Origin: Moritella yayanosii
GTDB lineage: Bacteria > Pseudomonadota > Gammaproteobacteria > Enterobacterales > Moritellaceae
Length of the DNA: 64,000 nucleotides
NCBI RefSeq assembly: GCF_900465055.1
Contig: NZ_LS483250.1
Span: 682,001 to 746,000, forward strand
Direction of reading: 5' to 3'
Below, piece by piece: positions 2 to 12,938 of the stretch. The position numbers and the translations under genes are program-made. Below the pieces are notes generated by a model. That model ran no database searches, had not been told where the DNA came from, and saw only the letters and a list, made by a program, of their open reading frames with translations. Numbering within the stretch: position 1 is the first letter of the stretch; each line of letters opens with the position of its first letter.

Positions 2-406
2 ACTGCACGTATTAACACCAAAATGTATTCAAGTTCATGTTATTTACCGATCCCACAACGCAGCAAAGCGATTTCGCACAGTATTGCTAAATGCTTGTGT
101 GATGTGGTGGATTTTCCGCGTTTAGTGAATACCTTACATGATAAAGGCGCGCGGGTATTTATTGAAATGGGTCCGGGACGTTCGTTATGCAGCTGGGTAG
201 ATAAGATCCTACTGTCTGACAAGAATAAACATGATGAGCAACAAGATAGCCGCCATGTATCCGTGCCGGTGAATGCCAAAGGCACCAGTGACGAACTTAC
301 TTATATTCGCGCGATTGCTAAATTAGTTAGCCATGGCGTGAATTTGAATTTAGATAGCTTGTTTAACGGGTCAATCCTGGTTAAAGCGGGCCGCCTTAAT
401 TGTTAA
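2..406 (+). CDS. pfaB: PfaB, C-terminal part (PUFA synthase acyltransferase subunit), cut by the window edge
   Basis: The reading frame is open from base 2, so the first in-frame ATG at 23 is internal and the gene begins outside the window. The visible 134 codons are the tail of an acyltransferase domain: FIEMGPGRSL matches the conserved E-x-GPG element near the end of malonyl/acyl-transferase domains. PfaB is the stand-alone acyltransferase-bearing subunit of the omega-3 PUFA synthase, and in the Moritella DHA cluster it lies directly before pfaC, as here. The 114-base gap before pfaC has no clear terminator, so co-transcription with pfaC is likely. The identification rests mainly on this context, because only the tail can be seen. 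Confidence 0.88.
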   Translation, partial: TARINTKMYSSSCYLPIPQRSKAISHSIAKCLCDVVDFPRLVNTLHDKGARVFIEMGPGRSLCSWVDKILLSDKNKHDEQQDSRHVSVPVNAKGTSDELTYIRAIAKLVSHGVNLNLDSLFNGSILVKAGRLNC

Positions 407-520
407 TACATGACGCTTCGCTAGAGCAGGCCGATAATTAAATAAGATCAACAAAACAAGATAAACAGTCCAGACGGGGCGTTCTCCGTCAGTCGAAATA
501 TGGATTTAAAGAGAGTAATT

Positions 521-3500
521 ATGGAAAATATTGCAGTAGTAGGTATTGCTAATTTGTTTCCGGGCTCACAAGCTCCGGATCAGTTTTGGCAGCAATTGCT
601 TGAACAACAAGATTGCCGCAGTCAAGCGACAGCCGTTCAAATGGGCGTTGACCCTGCTAAATATACCGCTAATAAGGGTGATACGGATAAGTTTTACTGT
701 ATCCACGGTGGTTACATCAGTGATTTCAATTTTGATGCTTCTGGTTATCAAGTCGATAGTAGCTATTTAACGGGGTTAGACGATCTAAATCAGTGGGGGC
801 TTTATGTTACTAAACAAGCGCTTGCAGATGCAGGTTACTGGGGCAGTGATGCGCTGGCAAATTGCGGGGTTATTTTAGGCAATCTGTCATTCCCAACCAA
901 GTCATCAAATCAGCTGTTCATGCCGTTATATCATCAAGTTGTTGATAATGCGTTAAAGTCACTATTACATCCAGATTTTCAATTAACCCATTACACGGCT
1001 GCTAAAAAAACACATGCCGATAATGCCTTAGTCTCGGGTTATCCAGCGGCTTTGATCGCCAAAGCTGCGGGTCTAGGTGGGTCACACTTTGCGTTGGATG
1101 CGGCTTGTGCGTCATCTTGTTATAGCGTTAAATTAGCCTGTGATTATCTGCATACCGGCAAAGCTGACATGATGTTAGCCGGCGCGGTATCAGCAGCAGA
1201 TCCGATGTTTGTGAATATGGGCTTCTCGATTTTCCAAGCTTATCCAGGTAATAACGTGCATGCCCCGTTTGACAAAAATTCACAAGGTTTATTTGCCGGT
1301 GAAGGCGCGGGCATGATGGTATTAAAACGCCACAGTGATGCAGTCCGCGATGGTGACAATATTTACGCCATTATTAAAGGCGGCGCATTATCGAATGATG
1401 GTAAAGGTGAGTTTGTATTAAGCCCAAATACCAAGGGTCAGGTACTCGCTTATGAACGCGCTTATGCAGATGCTGGAGTGGATCCAAGAGACGTTGATTA
1501 TATCGAGTGCCACGCTACCGGTACCCCGAAAGGTGATAATGTTGAATTACGCTCGATGGAAACCTTCTTTAGTCGAGTCAACAACAAACCTTTGTTGGGC
1601 TCGGTTAAATCTAACCTTGGTCATTTGTTAACGGCTGCCGGTATGCCGGGCATGACCAAAGCTATATTAGCGCTAGGTAAAGGTCTTATTCCTGCCACGA
1701 TTAATTTGAAAGAACCATTGCAGTCTAAAAATGGTTACTTTACTGGCGAACAGATGCCGACGAGTACTGTGCCTTGGCCTGAAACGACTGGCCCACGTAC
1801 AGCTGGTGTCAGTGTCTTTGGTTTTGGTGGCAGTAATGCGCATTTGGTATTACAACAACCAACGCAAGTGCTTGAAACTAACTTTAGTGCTGCTAAACCG
1901 CGTGAGCCATTGGCTATTATTGGTATGGACAGCCATTTTGGTAGTGCGAGTAACTTAGCGCAGTTCAAAACCTTATTAGATAATAACCAAAACACCTTCC
2001 GTGAGTTACCAGAGCAACGCTGGAAAGGCATGGAAAGTAACGCTAACGTTATGCAGTCGTTGCAGTTAACAAAAGCGCCTAAAGGTGGCTATGTTGAACA
2101 GCTAGATATCGATTTCTTACGTTTCAAAGTGCCGCCAAATGAAAAAGACTGCTTGATCCCACAACAATTAATGATGATGCAAGTTGCCGACAATGCGGCG
2201 AAAGATGCAGGACTCGTTGAAGGCAGTAATGTTGCCGTGTTAGTTGCTATGGGCATGGAGCTGGAATTACACCAGTATCGTGGTCGCGTTAATTTAACCA
2301 CGCAGATCGAAGACAGTTTATTACAGCAAGGGATTAACTTAACGGTTGAGCAACGTGAAGAACTGACTAATATTGCCAAAGATGGTCTCGCCTCTGCCGC
2401 GCAGTTAAATCAGTACACCAGTTTCATTGGTAATATCATGGCGTCACGTATTTCGGCGTTATGGGATTTCTCTGGTCCTGCGATCACGGTGTCGGCTGAA
2501 GAAAACTCGGTTTATCGTTGCGTTGAATTAGCTGAAAACCTATTCCAAACCAGTGATGTTGACGCGGTTATTATTGCTGCGGTTGATTTGGCCGGGTCTA
2601 TTGAAAACATTACCTTACGTCAGCATTTTGGTCCGGTAAGTGAAAATGGACGTAATAGCAAAGACGTAACCAGCAACAACCTATTCGATGAACAGCAATG
2701 GCTGGTGGGTGAGGGTGCTGCTGCGATTGTAGTGAAACCTGTATCCCAAGTTGCATCTCAACAAGTTTACGCCAGCATTGATGCGGTTAGTTTTGCATCA
2801 GGCAGCGATGCCAAAGCTATTGCGAGTGCGGCGGATAAAGCCTTAACGTTAGCAGGTATCAGTGCTGCAGATGTGACGAGTGTAGAAGCGCACGCCAGTG
2901 GTTTTAGTGCCGAAAATAGTGCTGAAAAAATCGCATTTTCAACACTTTATCCAAACGTTAATATTAGCTCGGTAAAATCCAATATTGGTCATACGTTTAA
3001 TGCATCTGGTATTGCTAGTATTATTAAAACTGCCTTACTGTTAGATCAACCAAGTAGTCAAGATCAACAAAAAGCGGTACAACATATTGCGATTAACGGT
3101 CTTGGTCGTGATAACAGTTGTGCACATCTTATTTTGTCGACTTCGGAACAAGGTCATCAAGCTGCGCCAGCGCCAATCGGTAAACGCCGTCCGCAACTGG
3201 TTAAAACGATCAAGCTTGGTGGTCAGTTAATTGCTGAAGCCATTGTGAATAGTGCCAGTTCATCGTTGAATGTGATTAAAGCGCAGTTTGCGGGTAAAAC
3301 CTTAACTAAGGTTAACCAGCCGATAATTATGGATAATCTGATACCACAAGGTATTCGTCCTAATTCGAGCAATGAAGCTGAGATCTCAGGATCCTCAATC
3401 CTTTCCCAACATCAACATACAGCGCAGCCAGTAATGGCTCAGAGCGTTGTTGGAGTGACAGTGAAAAGTAAAGCCAGTACAGAAATTTATCAGCAAGCGT

Positions 3501-6421
3501 CTACGCATCAGGCATTCTTACAAAACCGCTTAGCTGCACAGAAAAACCTGTCACAACTTATCGAACTACAAGCGAAGCTATCAGCTAAAACGCCAGTATC
3601 GGATAGTTTGCCAGTGCAAGGTCGAGTTGAAGCTTCAGCCTCGGAAACTGTTACTCCACTGACAGTTGTGTCGAGAGTTGTTTCAGAGAAGCCAGTCGTT
3701 GCTGCTAACCTCACCAGTGTCGAAGCACAGGCTCAAGCTGTTGCGACTCAGGCCGGTTTCCAGATCAAAGGGCCAGTCGGTTACAACTATCCACCATTGC
3801 AGTTAACTGAGCGTTATAACAAACCAGCAAATGTCATTTATGATCAAGCCGATCTGGTCGAATTCGCGGAAGGTGATATTGGTAAAGTATTTGGTGCTGA
3901 GTACAACATTATTGATGGTTACTCACGTCGTGTGCGTTTACCAACCTCGGATTATTTGTTAGTCACGCGCGTTACCGAGCTTGATGCTAAGATTCACGAA
4001 TACAAAAAATCCTACATGTGTACGGAATATGATATCCCAGTCGATGCACCGTTCCTTATTGATGGTCAGATCCCTTGGTCAGTAGCCGTGGAATCAGGTC
4101 AGTGTGACTTGATGTTGATCTCATATATAGGTATCGATTTCCAAGCTAAAGGTGAGCGTGTATACCGCTTACTTGATTGTGAACTCACTTTCCTTGAAGA
4201 AATGGCTTTCGGTGGTGAAACACTGCGTTATGAGATCCATATCGATTCTTATGCACGTAATGGTGAACAGTTATTATTCTTCTTCCACTATGATTGTTAT
4301 GTGGGTGATAAGAAAGTACTTATCATGCGTAATGGTTGTGCTGGTTTCTTTACTGATGAAGAGCTTGTCGATGGTAAAGGCGTGATCCATAACGACAAAG
4401 ATAAAGCTGAATTTGCTGATGCCGTGAAATCATCATTTACCCCGCTATTGCAAAATAACCGCAGCCAATACGATCATAACGACATGATGAAGCTGGTTAA
4501 CGGTGACGTGGCAGGTTGTTTCGGTCCGCAATATGATCTCGGTGGCCGTAATCCGTCATTGAAATTCTCATCAGAAAAATTCTTGATGATTGAGCGTATT
4601 ACCAAAATAGATCCAACCGGTGGTCATTGGGGCTTAGGGCTGTTAGAAGGCGAAAAAGACTTAGATCCTGAGCATTGGTATTTTCCTTGTCACTTTAAAG
4701 GTGATGAAGTGATGGCAGGTTCTTTGATGTCGGAAGGCTGTGGCCAGATGGCAATGTTCTTTATGTTGTCATTGGGCATGCATACCAACGTTAATAATGC
4801 ACGATTCCAACCCCTGCCAGGCGAATCGCAAACTGTACGTTGTCGTGGTCAGGTATTACCGCAGCGCAACACGTTGACTTATCGTATGGAAGTGACTGCG
4901 ATGGGGATGGAACCGTACCCGTTCATGAAGGCGAATATTGATATCCTGCTTGACGGTAAAGTAGTGGTAGATTTTAAAAATCTTTGCGTGATGATCACCG
5001 AACAAGATGATAATTCACCTTATCCGGTAACATTACCTGAGACTGTGGTAGTTAAAGCGCTAGTGGCTCCTGCTTCAGCGCCTGTTGTAACAACGGCAGC
5101 GCCAGTGGCTATAAATGTTAACGCAGCGGATATAGACGAACGTGGTATTGAACCATTTAAGTTCCCAGAACGTCCGTTAATGCGCGTGCAATCAGATTTG
5201 TCGTCACCGAAAAGCAAAGGTGTAACACCTATCCAGCATTTCGAAGCGCCTATGGTTGCAGGGCAGAATAGGGTGCCGAATCAAGCACCGTTCACGCCTT
5301 GGCATATGTTTGAATTCGCAACGGGTAACATTTCTAATTGTTTTGGACCTGATTTTGATGTCTATGAAGGCCGCATTCCACCGCGTACCCCTTGTGGTGA
5401 TCTACAAGTGGTTACTCAGGTTGTTGAAGTGCAGGGCGAACGTCTTGATCTGAAGAATCCGTCAAGCTGTGTCGCTGAATACTATGTACCGGAAGACGCT
5501 TGGTATTTCACTAAAAATAGCCATGAAAACTGGATGCCATATTCACTGATCATGGAAATTGCACTGCAACCAAATGGCTTTATTTCTGGTTACATGGGCA
5601 CGACGCTTAAATACCCTGAAAAAGACCTGTTCTTCCGTAACCTTGATGGTAGCGGCACGTTATTGAAACAGATCGATTTACGCGGCAAGACGATTGTTAA
5701 TAAATCAGTGTTAGTGAGCACGGCTATTGCTGGTGGCGCGATCATTCAAAGTTTCACCTTTGATATGTCAGTGGATGGCGAGTTATTTTATACTGGTAAA
5801 GCGGTATTTGGTTACTTCAGTGGCGAGTCGCTGACTAACCAACTGGGTATTGATAATGGTAAAATTACCCATGCTTGGTTTGTTGATAACAATACCCCGA
5901 CAGATAAAATTGATGTGTTTGATTTAACTAATCAGTCATTGGCTCTGTTTAAAGCACCTGCGGATAAACCGCATTATAAATTGGCTGGCGGTCAGATGAA
6001 CTTCATCGATACCGTGTCAGTGGTTGAAGGCGGTGGTAAAGCTGGTGTTGCTTATGTTTATGGTGAACGTACTATTGATGCTGATGATTGGTTCTTCCGT
6101 TATCACTTCCACCAAGATCCGGTTATGCCTGGTTCATTAGGTGTTGAAGCTATCATCGAGTTAATGCAAACTTATGCGTTGAAAAATGATTTAGGCGCAC
6201 AGTTCAGTAATCCTCGTTTCATTGCACCAATGACGAAAGTTGATTGGAAATACCGTGGTCAAATTACGCCGCTGAATAAGACAATGTCTCTGGATGTACA
6301 TATTACCGAGATCATTACTGAAGCTGGTGAAATACGTATTGTCGGTGATGCTAACCTGTCTAAAGATGGTCTGCGCATTTATGAAGTGAAGAATATTGTA
6401 TTAAGTATTGTTGAGGCGTAG
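521..6421 (+). CDS. pfaC: PfaC, omega-3 polyunsaturated fatty acid synthase subunit (KS-CLF-DH-DH)
   Basis: A 1966-residue multidomain enzyme that condenses and dehydrates the growing acyl chain in anaerobic DHA/EPA synthesis. Domains in order: ketosynthase at about 1-440 with active Cys196 in DAACASSC, then HATGTPKGD and SNLGH; a ketosynthase-like chain-length factor at about 455-880 whose catalytic Cys is lost (VSAEENSVYR); an Ala/Gln/Ser-rich linker at about 880-1100; then two FabA-like dehydratase units, each a pseudo hot-dog (from about 1117 and 1600) followed by a catalytic one. The catalytic histidines are H1391 (CHFKGDEVMAGSL) and H1862 (YHFHQDPVMPGSL). An in-frame ATG lies 21 bases upstream at 500. 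I chose 521 because GAGAG sits about 7 bases before it and the protein then begins MENIAVVGIA, as I recall for Moritella PfaC. It lies between pfaB and pfaD. Confidence 0.97.
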   Translation: MENIAVVGIANLFPGSQAPDQFWQQLLEQQDCRSQATAVQMGVDPAKYTANKGDTDKFYCIHGGYISDFNFDASGYQVDSSYLTGLDDLNQWGLYVTKQALADAGYWGSDALANCGVILGNLSFPTKSSNQLFMPLYHQVVDNALKSLLHPDFQLTHYTAAKKTHADNALVSGYPAALIAKAAGLGGSHFALDAACASSCYSVKLACDYLHTGKADMMLAGAVSAADPMFVNMGFSIFQAYPGNNVHAPFDKNSQGLFAGEGAGMMVLKRHSDAVRDGDNIYAIIKGGALSNDGKGEFVLSPNTKGQVLAYERAYADAGVDPRDVDYIECHATGTPKGDNVELRSMETFFSRVNNKPLLGSVKSNLGHLLTAAGMPGMTKAILALGKGLIPATINLKEPLQSKNGYFTGEQMPTSTVPWPETTGPRTAGVSVFGFGGSNAHLVLQQPTQVLETNFSAAKPREPLAIIGMDSHFGSASNLAQFKTLLDNNQNTFRELPEQRWKGMESNANVMQSLQLTKAPKGGYVEQLDIDFLRFKVPPNEKDCLIPQQLMMMQVADNAAKDAGLVEGSNVAVLVAMGMELELHQYRGRVNLTTQIEDSLLQQGINLTVEQREELTNIAKDGLASAAQLNQYTSFIGNIMASRISALWDFSGPAITVSAEENSVYRCVELAENLFQTSDVDAVIIAAVDLAGSIENITLRQHFGPVSENGRNSKDVTSNNLFDEQQWLVGEGAAAIVVKPVSQVASQQVYASIDAVSFASGSDAKAIASAADKALTLAGISAADVTSVEAHASGFSAENSAEKIAFSTLYPNVNISSVKSNIGHTFNASGIASIIKTALLLDQPSSQDQQKAVQHIAINGLGRDNSCAHLILSTSEQGHQAAPAPIGKRRPQLVKTIKLGGQLIAEAIVNSASSSLNVIKAQFAGKTLTKVNQPIIMDNLIPQGIRPNSSNEAEISGSSILSQHQHTAQPVMAQSVVGVTVKSKASTEIYQQASTHQAFLQNRLAAQKNLSQLIELQAKLSAKTPVSDSLPVQGRVEASASETVTPLTVVSRVVSEKPVVAANLTSVEAQAQAVATQAGFQIKGPVGYNYPPLQLTERYNKPANVIYDQADLVEFAEGDIGKVFGAEYNIIDGYSRRVRLPTSDYLLVTRVTELDAKIHEYKKSYMCTEYDIPVDAPFLIDGQIPWSVAVESGQCDLMLISYIGIDFQAKGERVYRLLDCELTFLEEMAFGGETLRYEIHIDSYARNGEQLLFFFHYDCYVGDKKVLIMRNGCAGFFTDEELVDGKGVIHNDKDKAEFADAVKSSFTPLLQNNRSQYDHNDMMKLVNGDVAGCFGPQYDLGGRNPSLKFSSEKFLMIERITKIDPTGGHWGLGLLEGEKDLDPEHWYFPCHFKGDEVMAGSLMSEGCGQMAMFFMLSLGMHTNVNNARFQPLPGESQTVRCRGQVLPQRNTLTYRMEVTAMGMEPYPFMKANIDILLDGKVVVDFKNLCVMITEQDDNSPYPVTLPETVVVKALVAPASAPVVTTAAPVAINVNAADIDERGIEPFKFPERPLMRVQSDLSSPKSKGVTPIQHFEAPMVAGQNRVPNQAPFTPWHMFEFATGNISNCFGPDFDVYEGRIPPRTPCGDLQVVTQVVEVQGERLDLKNPSSCVAEYYVPEDAWYFTKNSHENWMPYSLIMEIALQPNGFISGYMGTTLKYPEKDLFFRNLDGSGTLLKQIDLRGKTIVNKSVLVSTAIAGGAIIQSFTFDMSVDGELFYTGKAVFGYFSGESLTNQLGIDNGKITHAWFVDNNTPTDKIDVFDLTNQSLALFKAPADKPHYKLAGGQMNFIDTVSVVEGGGKAGVAYVYGERTIDADDWFFRYHFHQDPVMPGSLGVEAIIELMQTYALKNDLGAQFSNPRFIAPMTKVDWKYRGQITPLNKTMSLDVHITEIITEAGEIRIVGDANLSKDGLRIYEVKNIVLSIVEA

Positions 6422-6534
6422 CAGGCATAAGTGCCGAATTGGTTAAAGACGCTTATAGATATTCTTTAATCAATACGGCCGATGTAGCACAGGCTAGGTT
6501 ACTTTTAAGATACAAGATAATAAACGGAATAGTT

Positions 6535-6576
6535 CAGTTGTTGAGTTCAGGCGTAAAGTTAAGAACTCAGCAGCTG
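6535..6576 (+). other. Hairpin in the pfaC-pfaD spacer
   Basis: A 14-bp stem (two G-U pairs) with a 14-base loop: left arm 6535-6548, right arm 6563-6576. It ends 8 bases before the pfaD ribosome binding site AGGA at 6584. No U-run follows, so it is not a normal Rho-independent terminator. A role in mRNA end protection, or in setting PfaD level relative to PfaC, is inference. Confidence 0.5.
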
Positions 6577-6594
6577 CAAAAATAGGAATTAAGT

Positions 6595-8211
6595 ATGTCG
6601 AGTTTAGGTTTTAACAATAACAACGCAATTAACTGGGCTTGGAAAGTTGATCCGGCGTCAGTGCATACGCAAGATGTCGAAATTAAAGCAACTTTAATGG
6701 ATTTGTCTAAGCCACTTTACGTTGCTAATCACTCGGGTGTTATGGGCATCACTAACCATACTTCAGTATCTGGTGCTATCAGCAACAATATTGATGTTGA
6801 TGTATTGGCATTTGCACAAAAACTAACACCAGAAGATCTGGGCGATGATGCTTATAAAAAACAACATGGGGTTAAATATGCCTACCATGGCGGCGCAATG
6901 GCGAACGGTATTGCGTCGGTTGAACTTGTTGTCGCGTTAGGTAAAGCGGGGCTGTTATGTTCTTTCGGCGCAGCAGGTTTAGTACCAGATGCGGTTGAAG
7001 ATGCAATTCGTCGTATTCAAGCAGAACTGCCAAATGGCCCTTATGCGGTTAACCTGATCCACGCACCAGCAGAAGAAGCACTAGAGCGTGGCGCGGTTGA
7101 ACGTTTTCTTAAACTGGGTGTTAAAACGGTAGAGGCCTCGGCTTACCTGGGTTTAACTGAGCATATTGTTTGGTATCGTGCGGCGGGTTTATCAAAAAAC
7201 AGCGATGGGTCAGTAAATATTGGTAACAAGGTTATTGCTAAAGTATCACGTACCGAAGTTGGTCGCCGCTTTATGGAGCCTGCACCGCAAAAGTTACTGG
7301 ATAAGTTATTAGCACAAGGCAAGATCACACCAGAACAAGCGGCATTAGCATTGTTAGTGCCAATGGCTGACGATATTACTGCGGAAGCGGATTCTGGTGG
7401 TCATACTGACAATCGACCATTTTTAACCTTATTACCGACTATTATTGGTTTGCGTGATGAAGTGCAAGCTAAGTATAACTTCTCTCCTGCATTACGCGTG
7501 GGTGCTGGTGGTGGTATCGGAACACCGGAAGCGGCGCTCGCCGCATTTAACATGGGCGCAGCTTACATCGTACTGGGCTCGGTTAATCAGGCTTGTGTCG
7601 AAGCTGGTGCATCTGAATATACGCGTAAACTGTTAGCTACCGTTGAAATGGCCGATGTAACGATGGCGCCAGCGGCAGATATGTTTGAAATGGGCGTTAA
7701 GCTACAGGTATTAAAACGTGGTTCTATGTTCGCTATGCGTGCGAAGAAACTCTATGACCTGTATGTGACTTATGACTCGATTGAAGACATTCCTGCAGCA
7801 GAACGTGAGAAGATTGAAAAGCAGATCTTCCGTGCCAACCTTGACGAGATCTGGGATGGTACGATCGCGTTCTTTGCTGAGCGTGATCCAGAAATGCTAG
7901 AACGTGCGAAAAGCAGTCCTAAGCGTAAAATGGCACTTATCTTTCGTTGGTATCTTGGTCTTTCTTCACGCTGGTCTAATACCGGTGAGAAGGGACGCGA
8001 AATGGATTATCAGATCTGGGCTGGCCCAAGTTTAGGTGCATTTAACAGCTGGGTGAAAGGTTCTTACCTTGAAGACTATACTCGCCGTGGCGCTGTAGAT
8101 GTTGCCTTGCACATGCTTAAAGGTGCTGCGTATTTACAACGTGTAAACCAGTTGAAATTGCAAGGCGTTAGCTTGAGTACAGAATTGGCAAGTTATCGCA
8201 CAAGTGATTAA
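6595..8211 (+). CDS. pfaD: PfaD, trans-acting enoyl reductase of the PUFA synthase
   Basis: 538 residues, the usual size for PfaD. The family is an FMN-dependent TIM-barrel flavoprotein (nitronate monooxygenase-like) that reduces the enoyl-acyl intermediate in trans with PfaA-C. The flavin/phosphate-binding stretch GAGGGIGTPEAALAAFNMGA followed by YIVLGSVNQ is plain at about residues 302-330, and AGLVPDAVEDAI fits the PfaD N-terminal region. The start is supported by AGGA 7 bases upstream. It follows pfaC after 173 bases, with a hairpin in between. About 485 bases of its 3' end are repeated, in decayed form, at about 9284-9735 beyond a fic insertion. The 3' part present here is intact and in frame. 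Confidence 0.97.
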   Translation: MSSLGFNNNNAINWAWKVDPASVHTQDVEIKATLMDLSKPLYVANHSGVMGITNHTSVSGAISNNIDVDVLAFAQKLTPEDLGDDAYKKQHGVKYAYHGGAMANGIASVELVVALGKAGLLCSFGAAGLVPDAVEDAIRRIQAELPNGPYAVNLIHAPAEEALERGAVERFLKLGVKTVEASAYLGLTEHIVWYRAAGLSKNSDGSVNIGNKVIAKVSRTEVGRRFMEPAPQKLLDKLLAQGKITPEQAALALLVPMADDITAEADSGGHTDNRPFLTLLPTIIGLRDEVQAKYNFSPALRVGAGGGIGTPEAALAAFNMGAAYIVLGSVNQACVEAGASEYTRKLLATVEMADVTMAPAADMFEMGVKLQVLKRGSMFAMRAKKLYDLYVTYDSIEDIPAAEREKIEKQIFRANLDEIWDGTIAFFAERDPEMLERAKSSPKRKMALIFRWYLGLSSRWSNTGEKGREMDYQIWAGPSLGAFNSWVKGSYLEDYTRRGAVDVALHMLKGAAYLQRVNQLKLQGVSLSTELASYRTSD

Positions 8212-8446
8212 TGTTGATTAGTTTCATTTATATATTAAAGCTTCTGCCGGAGGGGGAATCCCTTCCGCTATCACTGGATTCACTGCAACGCGTATTGGTG
8301 GATAAACATATTTCGCGCTTTACGTTAATCGTAAATTTATTTCTGTAGGCATTATGTGCTGAAATGGAATATACTTTAGATTGAAAAGTGATAATTTGTC
8401 ATGTAGCATCAACAGTAATAGTTAGTTTCTCTCAGGATCGCGAGTC
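8212..8446 (+). other. Spacer after pfaD with a possible promoter
   Basis: No gene seen. The first 90 bases or so align loosely with the sequence after the second pfaD end (9722-9812), including a GC-rich inverted repeat near 8248-8270, here without the U-run of the other copy. TTGAAA at 8381-8386, a 17-base spacer and TAGCAT at 8404-8409 form a plausible sigma-70 promoter (9 of 12 consensus bases) pointing at the small gene that starts at 8447. Confidence 0.35.
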
Positions 8447-8599
8447 ATGAAAAGTCAAAACAAAAAAGTAACTCAAAAAATGATATACAGGGCAGTTGCT
8501 AGCTCTACAGCTATTGAAACAAGAGCTTCTGTAAGTTCGATAGAAAAAAAGCTCAAAGCTAACAAGCATAAATACAGTTCACTATCACTAGCCTGCTAG
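8447..8599 (+). CDS. Small protein, candidate class I Fic antitoxin
   Basis: A 50-codon ORF with AGGA 9 bases before the ATG and a plausible promoter at 8381-8409. The peptide is basic (about 20% Lys/Arg). Residues 16-25 read AVASSTAIET, which fits the start of the Fic inhibitory-helix motif [S/T]-x-x-x-E-[G/N] (Ser20, Glu24), although the final residue is Thr rather than Gly or Asn. Short partners such as VbhA and YhfG carry this motif and block ATP binding in Fic enzymes. The ORF converges on the fic gene and overlaps its last 12 bases, whereas known pairs are co-directional with the antitoxin first. The antitoxin role is inference from the motif and the neighbour. It could also be a chance ORF. 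Confidence 0.45.
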   Translation: MKSQNKKVTQKMIYRAVASSTAIETRASVSSIEKKLKANKHKYSSLSLAC

Positions 8600-9205
8600 T
8601 ATATCTCTAACTAATCGCTCCATATGCTGGTAGTCGTGTGATACACCAGCTTGAATGGAGGCTATATAAAAATCTTTATTTTTATCCCAAAGGCTATAAT
8701 CTAACAAGCCAAATCCAGCTTTGTTGCAGATACTGTCCATCAGTAGTCGACTCATACGACCATTCCCTTCACGAAAAGGGTGTATTAAGATAAATTCAAT
8801 ATGGCTGCGAGCTAAGTATGATATTAACTCTTCCTGATTCATATTCGGTAAATGTTTAAATTGGGATAAGTATTCGGTTTCAAATAGATCTATACAACGA
8901 CCAATTTGAAGCGGTGAAGCGAACTGAAATCCGCCTTTCCCCATATCAACATTTCTAATTTTCCCAGCCCATTTATAGACATTACCAAGCCATTGTCGAT
9001 GCCAGGTTGAAATGTTTTCAAAAGAAAAATTGTCTGCTTCGGGAGTGTTAGTGGTAAAATATTTTTCGTATAGTTTTGTTAACAGTATCGCTTCAATATC
9101 ATTCATTTCTATTACGTCAATAATATCGAGAATGTTTGCCATTACGGTGTCGTTAGACCCTGGCTGATATTGAGTTTCAGAAGAGTCGATTTCATATTTA
9201 GTCAT
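8588..9205 (-). CDS. Fic-family AMP/NMP transferase (Fic/DOC protein)
   Basis: The full Fic core motif is present: HPFREGNGRMSR, with His142 catalytic in the numbering used here. Fic proteins move AMP or another phosphate-containing group from a nucleotide onto Ser, Thr or Tyr of target proteins, and many small ones are toxins. The upstream WKWAGKIRNVDMGKGG-like region also fits. The frame is open up to 9283, but those codons run into the duplicated pfaD sequence. I chose ATG at 9205 (MTKYEIDSS, about 205 aa) because similar small Fic proteins begin there. No clear ribosome site is seen. I see no inhibitory [S/T]xxxE[G/N] motif inside this protein, so a separate antitoxin is expected (see 8447-8599). 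The gene is AT-rich compared with pfaD. Confidence 0.85.
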   Translation of the reverse strand: MTKYEIDSSETQYQPGSNDTVMANILDIIDVIEMNDIEAILLTKLYEKYFTTNTPEADNFSFENISTWHRQWLGNVYKWAGKIRNVDMGKGGFQFASPLQIGRCIDLFETEYLSQFKHLPNMNQEELISYLARSHIEFILIHPFREGNGRMSRLLMDSICNKAGFGLLDYSLWDKNKDFYIASIQAGVSHDYQHMERLVRDILAG

Positions 9206-9283
9206 AAATGGGTGACATATTTGGGATTCGTAATATGAGTTTAAAGCACATACCAAACAATTCAACTTAATTTGGTTCACCAT

Positions 9284-9721
9284 ACGCGTGAAGAAACTTT
9301 ATGACCTGGACTCAATTAAAGACATTCCGGCAGCAGATCTTCCGTTCAAACCTTGACGAGATCTGGGATGGTACGATAGCGTTCTTTGCTGAGCGTGATC
9401 CAGAAATGCTAGCACGTGCGAAAAGTAGTCCTAAGCGTAAAATGGCACTGATCTTCCGTTGGTATCTTGGTCTTTCTTCATGTTGGTCAAATACCGGCGA
9501 GAAGGGACGTGAAATGGATTACCAGATTTGGGCAGGTCCAATTAGGTGCATTTAACAGCTGGGTGAAAGGTTCTTACCTTGAAGACTATACTCGCCGTGG
9601 CGCTGTTGATGTTGCCTTGCACATGCTTAAAGGTGCCGCGTATTTAGAACGTGTAAATCAGTTGAAATTGCAAGGTGTTAGCTTAAGTACTGAATTGGCG
9701 AGCTATCGTACAAGTGATTAA
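9284..9721 (+). pseudogene. Second, decayed copy of the pfaD 3' end
   Basis: This stretch aligns with pfaD bases about 7740-8211 and ends with the same stop codon and following TAATGTTGATTAG. It has no 5' half. Relative to pfaD it lacks 12 bases (after the GACCTG that matches 7764), about 23 bases between two short GCAGA repeats near 9333, and 2 bases near 9542, so the frame is broken and two overlapping 84-codon ORFs remain. Most substitutions against pfaD fall at third codon positions, so the copy diverged while still under selection as a functional pfaD and decayed later. The transcription terminator right after it (9772-9813) may be the original pfaD terminator. Confidence 0.88.
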
Positions 9722-9771
9722 TGTTGATTAGTGACAATGATTAATAAAAGCGCCTGAGGGTGCGAATATTA

Positions 9772-9813
9772 CCCCGTTATCACAGGCTTATTCCCTGTTA
9801 ACGGGGTTTTTTT
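9772..9813 (+). terminator. Rho-independent terminator behind the pfaD remnant
   Basis: CCCCGTTA (9772-9779) pairs with TAACGGGG (9799-9806). An inner ACAGG/CCTGT stem stacks on it after a 2-base bulge, and seven T follow. It lies about 50 bases after the stop of the decayed pfaD end, so it probably once terminated the pfa operon. Confidence 0.75.
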
Positions 9814-9906
9814 ATGTGTAATGAATAGCAGTAATGGCACTCACAAGTACTAATTATTAATTGCGTATATATTGGCTTTACTTAAAAACCCCATTTCCGA
9901 CACACC

Positions 9907-10089
9907 CTATTTTAACTTTCCCATACCTTTTCGCATCTTGTTTTCTCGATATGGAATGAAGTATTGCCGTGTTATTTGGTCTGCTCTAGCGTGGCCTAAG
10001 TCTGAATCAATCATAATTAAGTGTCGATGTTCTGCAGCACCAGTTTTAAGCTGTTGACCATGGTAGTGAACCACAACACTTGGCTTCAT
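9907..10089 (-). CDS. Hypothetical 60-residue ORF after the SIR2-like gene
   Basis: The start codon lies 11 bases past the stop of the SIR2-like frame on the same strand, with no clear ribosome binding site. The peptide is rich in Arg, Lys and His and ends in a basic run. I do not recognise it. It may be the tail of a broken gene, or not coding at all. The other-strand ORF over the same bases (9872-10057) looks no better. The rest of 9814-10100 shows nothing else. Confidence 0.25.
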   Translation of the reverse strand: MKPSVVVHYHGQQLKTGAAEHRHLIMIDSDLGHARADQITRQYFIPYRENKMRKGMGKLK

Positions 10090-10100
10090 TAAGAATTAAG

Positions 10101-11717
10101 TTATTGCTCGGAAGAAATTTTATTTTCAATTTCTTGACTCAAATTTTGCGTAGCAGGATTATCAGGAAATAACTTAGCTGCTTTTTTGGCAAACAACAAA
10201 GCTTCTTCAAAGCGACCTAAATCGCGTAAAACTTCAGCATAAGTTGTCACATGAAAGTGTCCAGGTTCGATAGAAAGCGATTTCTCACACCAGGTTATAG
10301 CTTCATCGGGGCGTTTCTGATTTAACAGGAAAACAGCGTAGTTACCCAGAATATCGGTGTTTTCCGGCTCAATGGCCAACGCTTTCTGGTAATGCTCTTC
10401 CGCCTCTAGATATCGCTCCATTTGACTCAACAGGTTTGCGTAGTTACCCCAAATACGTGCATGGTTGGGCTCAATGGCTAACGCTTTCAGGTAATGCTCT
10501 TTAGCCTCTGGGTATCGTTGTTCACTTCTTAATAGTTCAGCATAGTTATTTATCAATTGATAAGACTCAGGCAACTGCTTAAGTGCCGCCTGATATTGTT
10601 TTTCTTTTTCATTAATATCATCAAGTGTATTAATATAGAGAATCCAATCAACCCAGTCGCGTTGTTCAACAGAAACATGTGTAGTGAGCTGTTCTTTTAG
10701 CTCTGAAGAACCATGCTCACTCATATCAATAACTTGCTTATCAAGTGTATTTAGTAATTTTTTCGTACGAGCTTCGACTTTCTCTTTTTGCTTCTCTCGG
10801 TCATAACCTAAAACGTCACCAATTCTGAGCATCAACTCGTCAAATCCAGGCGTTGCCACTAATACTCCATTGTGCATCTCCATCAGCCCTTGAATATCTT
10901 GATTTGGTTCTTCACCTTTTTCGTAATAACACCAGAAAGGGCGTCCAGAGATGTCTCTCTTATCTAAACCTTTTAGAAAGTCCATCAAACTCCCATCATT
11001 ACCACCATAGCCAATGAAGATCGGAGTATAGAATTTAAAAATATTTTTCAAAGCTCCAGTCCACTGACTTGCTAACTTCGCTACACCATCTTCAGTATTT
11101 ATTGGAGAGGTAAATAAATCACGATGAATCTTAGCCACAATAGAACGGCGGGACATAGGCTTCAAGTAGGAGGCGAGCGATTCATGACCAATTACATGAG
11201 GGTAGTGTTCACCATAAATCGACAAAGCATCGGCAACAAGATTGTCGAAATTAGTCGTGATGACCATATTATGTTGGCCAGACGAAAGTATCCAGGCTAA
11301 AACCGCGTATCCTAAGCTTGGTTTGCTCTGTTCAATGGCTCTTTCCAGCTCTGCGTAGCCTGAATCGTGGTCACCATCAAAGCAATGCTCAAAAATAGTT
11401 GGATAATGCTTAGCTAAGTTTTTGGCGTCCCAATCATCTATTTCGAGAGGGTTTTTTTCCAACCATTGTTCAAATTTATCAGGTTTAACTCCAGAGCAAT
11501 CCCTTTCGTATAACTGCTCTTTTGCGAAGTTTACTTTCTTGCTATGTGCGGCCAAGCATAATCCCTTATGCGCTATGAAAAATGAACTTGTAATTAATTT
11601 TTCATCACATCTTCTGCCCAGTCCAAACCACACGCCCGATAAGTGCCAGTTCTTCACCGTCCAATTGCGATTTTGTGATCTCCCAAGGGTCATACATAGA
11701 ATTATCAGACTTAACAC
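10101..11717 (-). pseudogene. SIR2-like domain plus TPR protein, N-terminus missing
   Basis: The frame is open over 538 codons, but only from about residue 55 does it look like protein of this family. The SIR2_2 region has NMVITTNFDNLVADAL and, further on, FIGYGGNDGSLMDFL, which match the NAD-binding parts of SIR2-like proteins in phage defence and NAD depletion. The C-terminal third is made of tetratricopeptide repeats (for example AEEHYQKALAIEPENTDILG). The N-terminal glycine-rich GAG loop of SIR2 domains is absent. Codons upstream of about 11605 are the out-of-frame tail of the S24 repressor remnant, and no in-frame ATG lies between that junction and the NMVITTN stretch. I read it as a 5'-truncated, probably inactive gene. 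A non-ATG start near 11555-11600 could still give a product. Confidence 0.62.
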
Positions 11718-11877
11718 GAATAATGCCGCCTGGTAACATCTGCAATCGCTTCACCAATAAGTTATTGTCATGGCGCATGACATAAACCCCATCAGATAAA
11801 TTATCCACATCACAATTAACCATGATTATAGAGCCGTTCTTTAATGTAGGCAGTATGCTGTTACTGTCTAGCGTGCA
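11605..11877 (-). pseudogene. Remnant of an S24-family (CI/LexA-type) phage repressor
   Basis: The frame runs from a stop codon at 11878-11880 to its own stop at 11605. It encodes the C-terminal S24 peptidase domain: NSILPTLKNGSIIMVN, carrying the catalytic Ser, and LLVKRLQ, carrying the Lys. The homology begins before the first ATG (11823), so the DNA-binding half of the protein has been lost rather than being encoded from that ATG. CI-like repressors hold prophages silent and self-cleave during the SOS response. The remnant touches the headless SIR2-like frame, which suggests one deletion that removed the ends of both genes. Confidence 0.72.
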
Positions 11878-11965: not shown

Positions 11966-12074
11966 TAAACAATCAGCGCAATAAGTAATGATTATATTAT
12001 TATAATATCCATTGAGTGGTGTTAGGCGAGGGCACTACACTTATGGGCAATGATTGCATAGTAGAGAGAAAACT

Positions 12075-12416
12075 ATGAGTAAATCAGAACCTTTGAAAAT
12101 TGTAGAGTTTCCTTTAACTGCTCGGTCAGCAAAATTAATTCTTCGTGATTTAGCTGAGAATCACACAAATAGAATTAAATTTTCAAAACATGCTAGAGAT
12201 AGACTTTCTCAGCGAGATATTACTATCCAGCAAGTACTTTGTATTTTTAAAAGTAATTCTAATCGATTTCATGAACAACCACACCAAACTGCTGGCGGTG
12301 ATTGGCAAATGAACATTGAAGGCATTGCTTCGGGTGATTCAATTAGGATCCCGTTAGTATTAAGAAAGCATGAAGATGACCCTTCTGTATTAGTGATTAC
12401 TGTTATTAGTATTTAG
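12075..12416 (+). CDS. DUF4258-like protein, putative toxin of a type II pair
   Basis: 113 residues. FSKHARDRLSQRDITIQQV is the characteristic N-terminal part of DUF4258 proteins (KHA.ER..QR.I), small RelE/MqsR-like proteins commonly paired with an HTH antitoxin. The frame can be extended to a TTG at 12054, but ATG 12075 has GAGAG just upstream and is the better start. The partner begins 72 bases after the stop. Toxin activity (presumably mRNA cleavage or translation block) is inferred from family and pairing. The gene is AT-rich and sits among phage remnants, which suggests acquisition by transfer. Confidence 0.7.
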   Translation: MSKSEPLKIVEFPLTARSAKLILRDLAENHTNRIKFSKHARDRLSQRDITIQQVLCIFKSNSNRFHEQPHQTAGGDWQMNIEGIASGDSIRIPLVLRKHEDDPSVLVITVISI

Positions 12417-12488
12417 TTATTAACGTCAGGAATTATTGATCCTAGCTTTGATTACTTAGCAAAGTATTTATTTCAAATCGGAGTTAAC

Positions 12489-12938
12489 ATGAGTAAGTCA
12501 TACCACTATACAGAGTGTGGTCTACCAAATGTGCATCTAAAAAATGGCTACACTCTTGAAATTATTGATGGCGAAGAATACCTAAGTATCGACGATATGA
12601 ACGGTTTACATAATGCCATTGGTTCTCAAGTTGTGGATAAAAACCAGGGCTTAACTGGTGATGAATTTAAGTTCTTACGATTACAGTTTAACCATTCTCG
12701 CAGAGTACTTGGCGAGCTATTGGGTATAGACCAACAAACTGTAGGCCGTTGGGAAAAAGAAGAAACAGCAATTCCTAAAACAGTTGATGCCACTATGCGT
12801 CAGTTATTTTTAGAATTATTAAATGAAGATAGTAATTTAAGTTATCTACTTGAAAAGTTAGCAGACAGAGAAGCTAAAACACTAATGTCTGAAATCATTC
12901 TTGAAGAGAAAGATCATCAGTGGCTTAAAGCTGTGTAA
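12489..12938 (+). CDS. HTH antitoxin/regulator, MqsA-like
   Basis: 149 residues. The N-terminus YHYTECGLPNVHLKNGY and a later LTGDEFKFLR, followed by a helix-turn-helix (RRVLGELLGIDQQTVGRWEK, about 78-97), match the widespread family of MqsA/HigA-type antitoxins found next to DUF4258 genes. It should bind the promoter of the pair and neutralise the upstream protein. SD-like GGAG lies 6 bases before the ATG. Gene order is toxin first, antitoxin second, as in MqsRA and HigBA. The hairpin at 12972-12992 ends the unit. Confidence 0.78.
   Translation: MSKSYHYTECGLPNVHLKNGYTLEIIDGEEYLSIDDMNGLHNAIGSQVVDKNQGLTGDEFKFLRLQFNHSRRVLGELLGIDQQTVGRWEKEETAIPKTVDATMRQLFLELLNEDSNLSYLLEKLADREAKTLMSEIILEEKDHQWLKAV

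Follow-up and report, generated by a model that had tools for sequence, protein, structure and literature searches.

The DNA stretch considered here (the window) comprises 64,000 nucleotides (nt), positions 682001-746000 of the single-contig 4.43 Mb genome of the marine bacterium Moritella yayanosii. Its subject is the end of the biosynthetic operon pfaABCD, where the intact omega-3 fatty-acid gene pfaD is separated by about 1.1 kb, carrying a small open reading frame (ORF) and a toxin-like fic gene, from a second and decayed pfaD 3' end. This arrangement was first described in a first-pass annotation made from the letters alone and is confirmed here. The 3' end of the intact gene is referred to as copy 1 and the decayed end as copy 2 (Table 1). 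Between the two copies, the ORFs are fic, the small ORF (the Fic partner) and two frames of 51 amino acids (aa) antisense to fic, and no others. The pfaD ends are the only long repeat in the window in a plus-strand self-comparison (E up to 1e-10), in which the sole other match is an 80-nt TPR repeat. The exact position of the joint between fic and copy 2 is uncertain by some tens of bases.

Table 1. Features at the end of the pfa operon (window positions).
Feature	Position	Strand	Remarks
Intact pfaD, 538 aa	6595..8211	+	Its 3' end, 7728-8211, is copy 1
Short relic of the middle of a P2-type integrase, copy-1 flank	8277..8332	-	
Fic partner, 50 aa, antitoxin-like	8447..8599	+	ASSTAIET motif; convergent with fic
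fic, 205 aa	8588..9205	-	HPFREGNGR motif; PF02661 5.6e-17; PDC-S04 8e-85
fic upstream region and presumed illegitimate junction with copy 2	9206..9275		Placed where alignable pfaD sequence ends
Decayed second pfaD 3' end (copy 2)	9275..9721	+	
Phage integrase 3' end with terminator hairpin	9736..9896		Follows the pfaD terminator stem
P2-type integrase relic, middle and N-terminal parts	9858..10089	-	
SIR2-TPR gene, candidate defence gene on the copy-2 side	10101..11600	-	SIR2_2 PF13289 1.9e-8, plus TPR
CI-type (S24) phage repressor relic	11605..11823	-	PF00717 4.6e-9; phrog_6201 5.7e-16

The two pfaD ends are 92.9% identical and differ by 35 substitutions over 149 codons, distributed over the first, second and third codon positions as 5, 2 and 28. 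The third-position bias that had been claimed is thus present, and 28 or more of 35 changes at third positions have a binomial probability of 2e-8 under an expectation of 1/3. The changed codons comprise 24 synonymous and 8 nonsynonymous cases. Copy 1 belongs to a full PfaD protein that is 98% identical to the PfaD of the Moritella strain PE36. Deletions of 12, 23 and 2 nt set copy 2 apart from copy 1, and the 5' part of the gene is gone; because of these deletions and the missing 5' part, copy 2 is unable to encode PfaD. As this fragment has no start and covers less than one third of the gene, its silent divergence must have arisen within a full pfaD, in agreement with the earlier view that it was once part of a working gene, since the fragment itself is under no PfaD selection. 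Both copies share the stop codon and the 11 bases after it, an agreement that the first reading had noted. Strong homology between the copies begins at position 9332, and the stretch 9275-9331 is weaker and gapped.

The differences between the copies resemble those between alleles. At the third positions of the 149 codons, copy 1 and copy 2 differ 28 times, copy 1 and PE36 19 times, and copy 2 and PE36 23 times. Both states are present in other Moritella species (10 other genomes) at 20 of the 28 differing third positions; the state of copy 2 is found there at 23 and that of copy 1 at 25 of the 28. On this pattern, the copies have the appearance of alleles derived from two separate lineages. 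An origin within the lineage would instead involve a tandem duplication of the full pfaD or of its end, the insertion of fic, deletion and decay, and possibly a later replacement of copy 1 by recombination. A tree of 447 columns, an analysis proposed with the original observation, leaves room for this course of events, as the two copies are not rejected as sisters (p-AU 0.108) and the branching order of copy 1, copy 2, PE36 and genome G006 is unsettled. Nevertheless, such a duplication is considered improbable, since the third-position divergence between the copies is larger than that of either copy from PE36 and since their flanks retain different integrase parts, as described below. In its plain and recent form, a tandem duplication is thought unlikely because of the third-position pattern, even though the tree does not reject it.

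Among the 11 genomes of the genus that were searched, extra pfaD pieces are found in this genome only, and the other 10 have one pfaD match each. A strain with an uninterrupted junction between pfaD and its terminator, for which the first-pass annotation had suggested looking, is PE36, where a single pfaD runs into a flank of the copy-2 type. PE36 matches the window unbroken from inside pfaD outward (9332-10069; 740 bp, 91%). The identity to PE36 is 95.4% for copy 1 and 94.4% for copy 2, while the pfa operon (window 273-8241) aligns at 93.8% and the 12 kb beyond the variable region are 94% identical. Given this similar identity throughout, without a step, the comparison with PE36 reveals neither the left breakpoint nor the direction of exchange. 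In the 10 other Moritella genomes, fic was not found (E up to 0.001), and the copy-1 flank was not found beyond short matches. The DNA past the pfa operon varies between strains, and the operon itself is long and conserved.

Four features of the locus and its relatives were not part of the earlier description: the phage-derived terminator, the relics of P2-type integrases on both flanks, the conservation of the Fic partner and the recurrence in Shewanella. Integrase relics are present in the flanks of both pfaD copies. In the copy-1 flank, the piece matches the intact integrases of genomes G005 and G007 over 34 nt at 88% and that of G002 over 55 nt at 76%, and none of 100 mononucleotide shuffles of this flank matched an integrase at 1e-3. 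In the copy-2 flank, positions 9736..9896 are 67-70% identical to the 3' end region and downstream sequence of the intact integrases in G002, G005 and G007. After a deletion, the flank aligns to the middle and N-terminal parts of the integrase, and the deduced integrase fragment matches Int_N. The intact integrase of G005 is 49.7% identical to that of Peduovirus P2 over 322/322 aa. It had been suggested that the duplicated block is longer than the coding part; the flanks do align loosely, but they differ in which integrase parts survive, so that one single block is unproven.

A terminator hairpin lies behind copy 2, where the fold of 9722-9815 has a z of -4.38. In the earlier reading, the old end was displaced together with its terminator; the terminator found there is largely phage-derived. 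In the copy-1 flank, the scan gave no terminator-like site and the fold is not unusual (z 0.33). Genomes G002, G005 and G007 have a plain native hairpin terminator behind pfaD, without phage sequence. PE36 and G004 have retained integrase relics behind pfaD, and G001 has retained an integrase-end hairpin; in G009 a repressor piece lies 1.2 kb beyond pfaD, and in G006 a C-terminal integrase piece lies about 7 kb beyond it. A wider comparison was made with 80 pfaD loci from named genomes, including 30 from Shewanella and 3 from Moritella. The search for P2-type integrases in these loci gave matches in the PE36 and JT01 records (L048 and L049) and weak C-terminal matches in L053 and L055, with the second piece of L125 left out as a continuation of the same pfaD.

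P2-family phages integrate beside terminators and have the order attP-int-CI. Judging from the integrase joints, the pfaD terminator may be a former attachment site of such phages. When the window was scanned for a second copy of the native pfaD terminator, which could mark the right end of a prophage, none was found even with 3 mismatches allowed. On the copy-2 side, the SIR2-TPR gene is a candidate defence gene, matched by profiles of the SIR2-pAgo type (best 1.3e-25), and the CI relic that follows is 97% identical at the amino acid level to the relic behind the pfaD of PE36. In PE36, the same interval contains genes for a 928-aa HD-CE/HATPase protein, a 312-aa protein with a HEPN match below threshold and a 162-aa protein for which no match exceeded the cut-off. 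A hotspot for defence genes has been described between the integrase and the CI repressor in a P2-related phage that resembles K139 and PhiO18P (PMC9122126). The order of integrase relic, candidate defence gene and CI relic on the copy-2 side, in which Int_N and S24 relics flank the SIR2-TPR gene, is the same as in that hotspot, and the presence of different cargo at this place in PE36 is a further likeness. The difference is that the locus studied here, judged by gene order, is a decayed remnant at the end of pfaD.

Some observations concern the neighbourhood of this site. The longest frame of the SIR2-TPR gene (GTG at 11717) extends into the overlapping CI repressor relic. Residues 2-41 of this frame match sites in most other Moritella genomes, some of which lie a few kb from intact P2-type integrases. 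From these matches and the overlap with the relic, it follows that the true start of the gene is probably below about 11600. The gene pair at 12054-12938 (+) encodes a DUF4258-like protein (below the cut-off) followed by an HTH_3 protein, and is possibly a toxin-antitoxin pair; in G002, a 90% relative of the HTH gene lies about 14 kb beyond pfaD. In G001 (M. dasanensis), a KAP-NTPase gene (L021:3514-5223; profile PDC-S20, 9.6e-87) is located about 0.9 kb downstream of pfaD, on the far side of the integrase-end hairpin, and is another candidate defence gene at the pfaD site.

The cargo between the two pfaD ends is the fic gene with its partner. The start of fic is very likely at 9205 and not at the called 9283, because the plasmid homologues align from residue 27 (12/12 of those listed, out of 1723 matching records). 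Its motif fits the class I Fic motif HPFx[D/E]GN[G/K]R (PMC7479194). The best PADLOC profile is the candidate PDC-S04, and among solved structures the closest in sequence are 8wt0 and 5nv5, which are both named Fic, with VbhT next. The partner ORF lies tail-to-tail with fic. It has no match in Pfam, PADLOC, PHROGs or NCBIfam, and the profile of its family matched no PDB chain. Searches for Fic and for the small ORF were run separately, on 369 and 274 genomes of the class, respectively. With this genome counted, Fic was found in 11/369 genomes at 1e-40 and the small ORF in 9/274 at 0.01. Six other genomes (G063, G082, G099, G120, G168 and G229) contain both genes, adjacent and convergent in all six, and the same convergent pair is carried by a Citrobacter plasmid. 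The small ORF is present without Fic at 1e-40 in G189 and G196. For G195, G289, G337 and G357, Fic is found (1e-40) and the small ORF is not listed, and the presence of these four in the 274-genome sample was not checked.

In class I Fic modules, the antitoxin contains the inhibition motif [S/T]xxxE[G/N] and its gene lies upstream of fic (PMC5033356). The pair at pfaD is similar to modules such as VbhTA and EcFicTA in that a Fic motif is combined with a separate small [S/T]xxxE protein (PMC5033356), the STAIE of the partner fitting this pattern. It differs in that the residue after the glutamate is T, not G or N, and the partner gene is convergent instead of upstream in an operon (PMC5033356), in the window as well as in the six other genomes and on the Citrobacter plasmid. 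The sequence ASSTAIET is exact in 7 of 10 members of the partner family, and in L146 an A replaces the glutamate. The partner is accordingly regarded as a candidate for a conserved, convergent antitoxin of Fic; a partial literature survey found no report of a convergent Fic antitoxin. On the Citrobacter plasmid, an integrase lies 4 bp upstream of fic. This integrase has no relative (1e-4) beside the fic/partner genes in L129-L148, and a standing integrase-fic unit is not claimed. The search for Fic in genome contigs matched 40 stretches, none of which is a relative by tblastn.

Taken as a whole, the segment is best read as a recombination scar beside the remains of an old prophage, joining two haplotypes of the pfaD end and formed by homology-facilitated illegitimate recombination with the pfa operon as its anchor (probability of about 0.6). 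Haplotype A would consist of the intact pfaD, the P2-type integrase remains and the Fic/partner pair, and haplotype B of a pfaD 3' end, the phage-derived terminator, the integrase relic, the SIR2-TPR gene and the CI relic. In an earlier step, P2-family phages would have attached at the pfaD terminator. Such an old attachment site would have given a non-homologous, cargo-rich flank past pfaD, which would have favoured one-sided events. Incoming DNA would then have paired with the resident chromosome through pfaABCD, the homologous side, but not beyond it, and its other side would have been joined into the resident pfaD some 70 nt upstream of fic, with no homology involved. As a result, pfaD would be left whole, the donor cargo gained, and the resident pfaD end stranded and then decayed. 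The conserved operon, which adjoins copy 1, is the presumed anchor. At the presumed joint (9206-9275), no clear shared sequence is seen, as judged from the recombined state. The same mechanism has been proposed for stranded 3' ends in type VI secretion system (T6SS) and Rhs loci (PMC5361080).

The first-pass annotation had proposed that a pfaD-fic segment from a related strain restored the gene and pushed the old end downstream. The allele-like divergence and the PE36 junction support the core of this proposal, which is favoured, but its direction, that is, which end is the newcomer, is unproven. In the mirror image, the resident would have had pfaD, integrase relic and fic, and the incoming DNA would have brought a pfaD 3' end, the SIR2-TPR gene and the CI relic, with an illegitimate joint on the left and a homologous one on the right. 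This would yield the same final order, and copy 1 does lie on a pfa operon of ordinary identity to PE36. The mirror image is the strongest rival and is nonetheless unlikely, as PE36 has the copy-2 junction and the possible anchor, the conserved operon, adjoins copy 1.

Several points weigh against the scar of two haplotypes. No step in identity to PE36 marks the left breakpoint (400-bp bins range from 80.8 to 99.0%), and the A-type junction was not found in any of the 10 other Moritella genomes searched. The match that identifies the integrase relic in the copy-1 flank covers 34-55 nt. The divergence of copy 2 is inflated by decay, with 10 private states, 6 of them within its first 25 nt, and the tree discussed above does not reject the two copies as sisters. 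In addition, recombination of this type has been described as rare in comparison with ordinary homologous exchange (PMC5361080).

Two further explanations were weighed. The fic/copy-2 joint has no integrase, since fic, its partner and the two antisense frames are the only ORFs between the copies. A prophage after aberrant excision, or another circle, that carried a pfaD 3' end and fic could have entered by a single homologous crossover inside the pfaD end, in the manner of a Campbell integration. Although this would give the same duplicated structure and would suit the P2-type phage relics at the pfaD end, it has a low probability: besides the short integrase relic, no phage gene was recognized between the copies, where only fic and its partner were scanned, and the closeness to PE36 shows no clean switch between the copies along 480 bp, which is a weak test. 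A site-specific insertion with a replacement gene end, as known for prophage e14 in icd of Escherichia coli, would look the same from the outside, since a mostly silent alternative 3' end restores the gene while the old end is displaced. The icd alleles of strains that carry e14 and of strains that lack it differ at 12 sites, of which 10 are silent (PMC4759930), and the mostly silent differences between the restored and displaced ends are shared with pfaD (PMC4759930). However, e14 is a prophage that recombines at 11-bp repeats (PMC4759930), and an integrase is lacking at the joint of fic and copy 2. Furthermore, the integrase relics belong at the terminator, about 480 nt away, and no identity step to PE36 occurs inside pfaD, which makes an e14-like origin barely credible.

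Beyond these cases, the two-haplotype scar can be compared with two other known situations. It is similar to the T6SS immunity arrays of Vibrio cholerae and to Rhs orphan ends in that a conserved upstream anchor is combined with new cargo while the old 3' part is kept downstream (PMC5361080). Here, though, a biosynthetic operon is the presumed anchor, a Fic pair makes up the cargo, and the displaced part is the decayed end of a metabolic gene with no evident selection. Insertions with long target duplications (Nobusato et al. 2000, as described in PMC3031569) likewise have genes of a selfish type flanked by a long direct host repeat. The repeats in that system are described as target duplications (PMC3031569), whereas those at pfaD resemble diverged alleles, being 92.9% identical with allele-like silent differences, although an old duplication with later conversion would also fit. 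The type of event inferred at pfaD is a known one; what appears to be new is that it took place where a biosynthetic operon ends, that it is repeated in a second genus and that Fic has a convergent partner.

That repetition is seen in Shewanella. Clear extra pfaD ends downstream of pfaD occur in 4 of the 80 loci, all of them from Shewanella (4/30, against 0/3 for the Moritella loci of this set), and the ends are decayed (L099, L101, L114 and L115). S. schlegeliana and S. marinintestina have two extra ends each, and S. abyssi and Shewanella sp. 1CM18E one each. These counts leave out trivial self-matches no longer than 50 bp, at +11 to +60, that the script produces by design, a 35-bp match in L120 (S. 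salipaludis) and, in L104 and L107, matches of 26-49 nt that fall in the terminator flank. In L099 and L114, other genes separate the intact pfaD from a displaced end. The intervening DNA holds a 267-aa gene in S. abyssi; in S. schlegeliana, one displaced end directly follows pfaD and the second lies beyond three genes. One of these three is also a 267-aa gene, related-looking by eye to that of S. abyssi. The extra ends in Shewanella have common insertions that are absent from 8 aligned intact Shewanella pfaD genes, so they are not fresh copies of the neighbouring pfaD. They probably trace to one ancestral event with later local conversion. No report of duplicated pfaD ends was found in a partial survey of the literature.

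A broader reading, offered only tentatively, is that accessory genes become trapped time and again where the pfa operon ends, in Moritella and Shewanella at the least. With pfaABCD as a long conserved anchor next to a variable flank scarred by phages, one-sided recombination would have piled up cargo there repeatedly, each event leaving a fossil pfaD end, and fic would belong to an undescribed class of Fic toxin-antitoxin pairs with a convergent antitoxin. The convergent partner family is a testable antitoxin candidate. If this reading is true, stranded gene ends would form a fossil record of one-sided import beside any long conserved operon and not just at toxin loci, and would provide a simple signature for counting such events in genomes.

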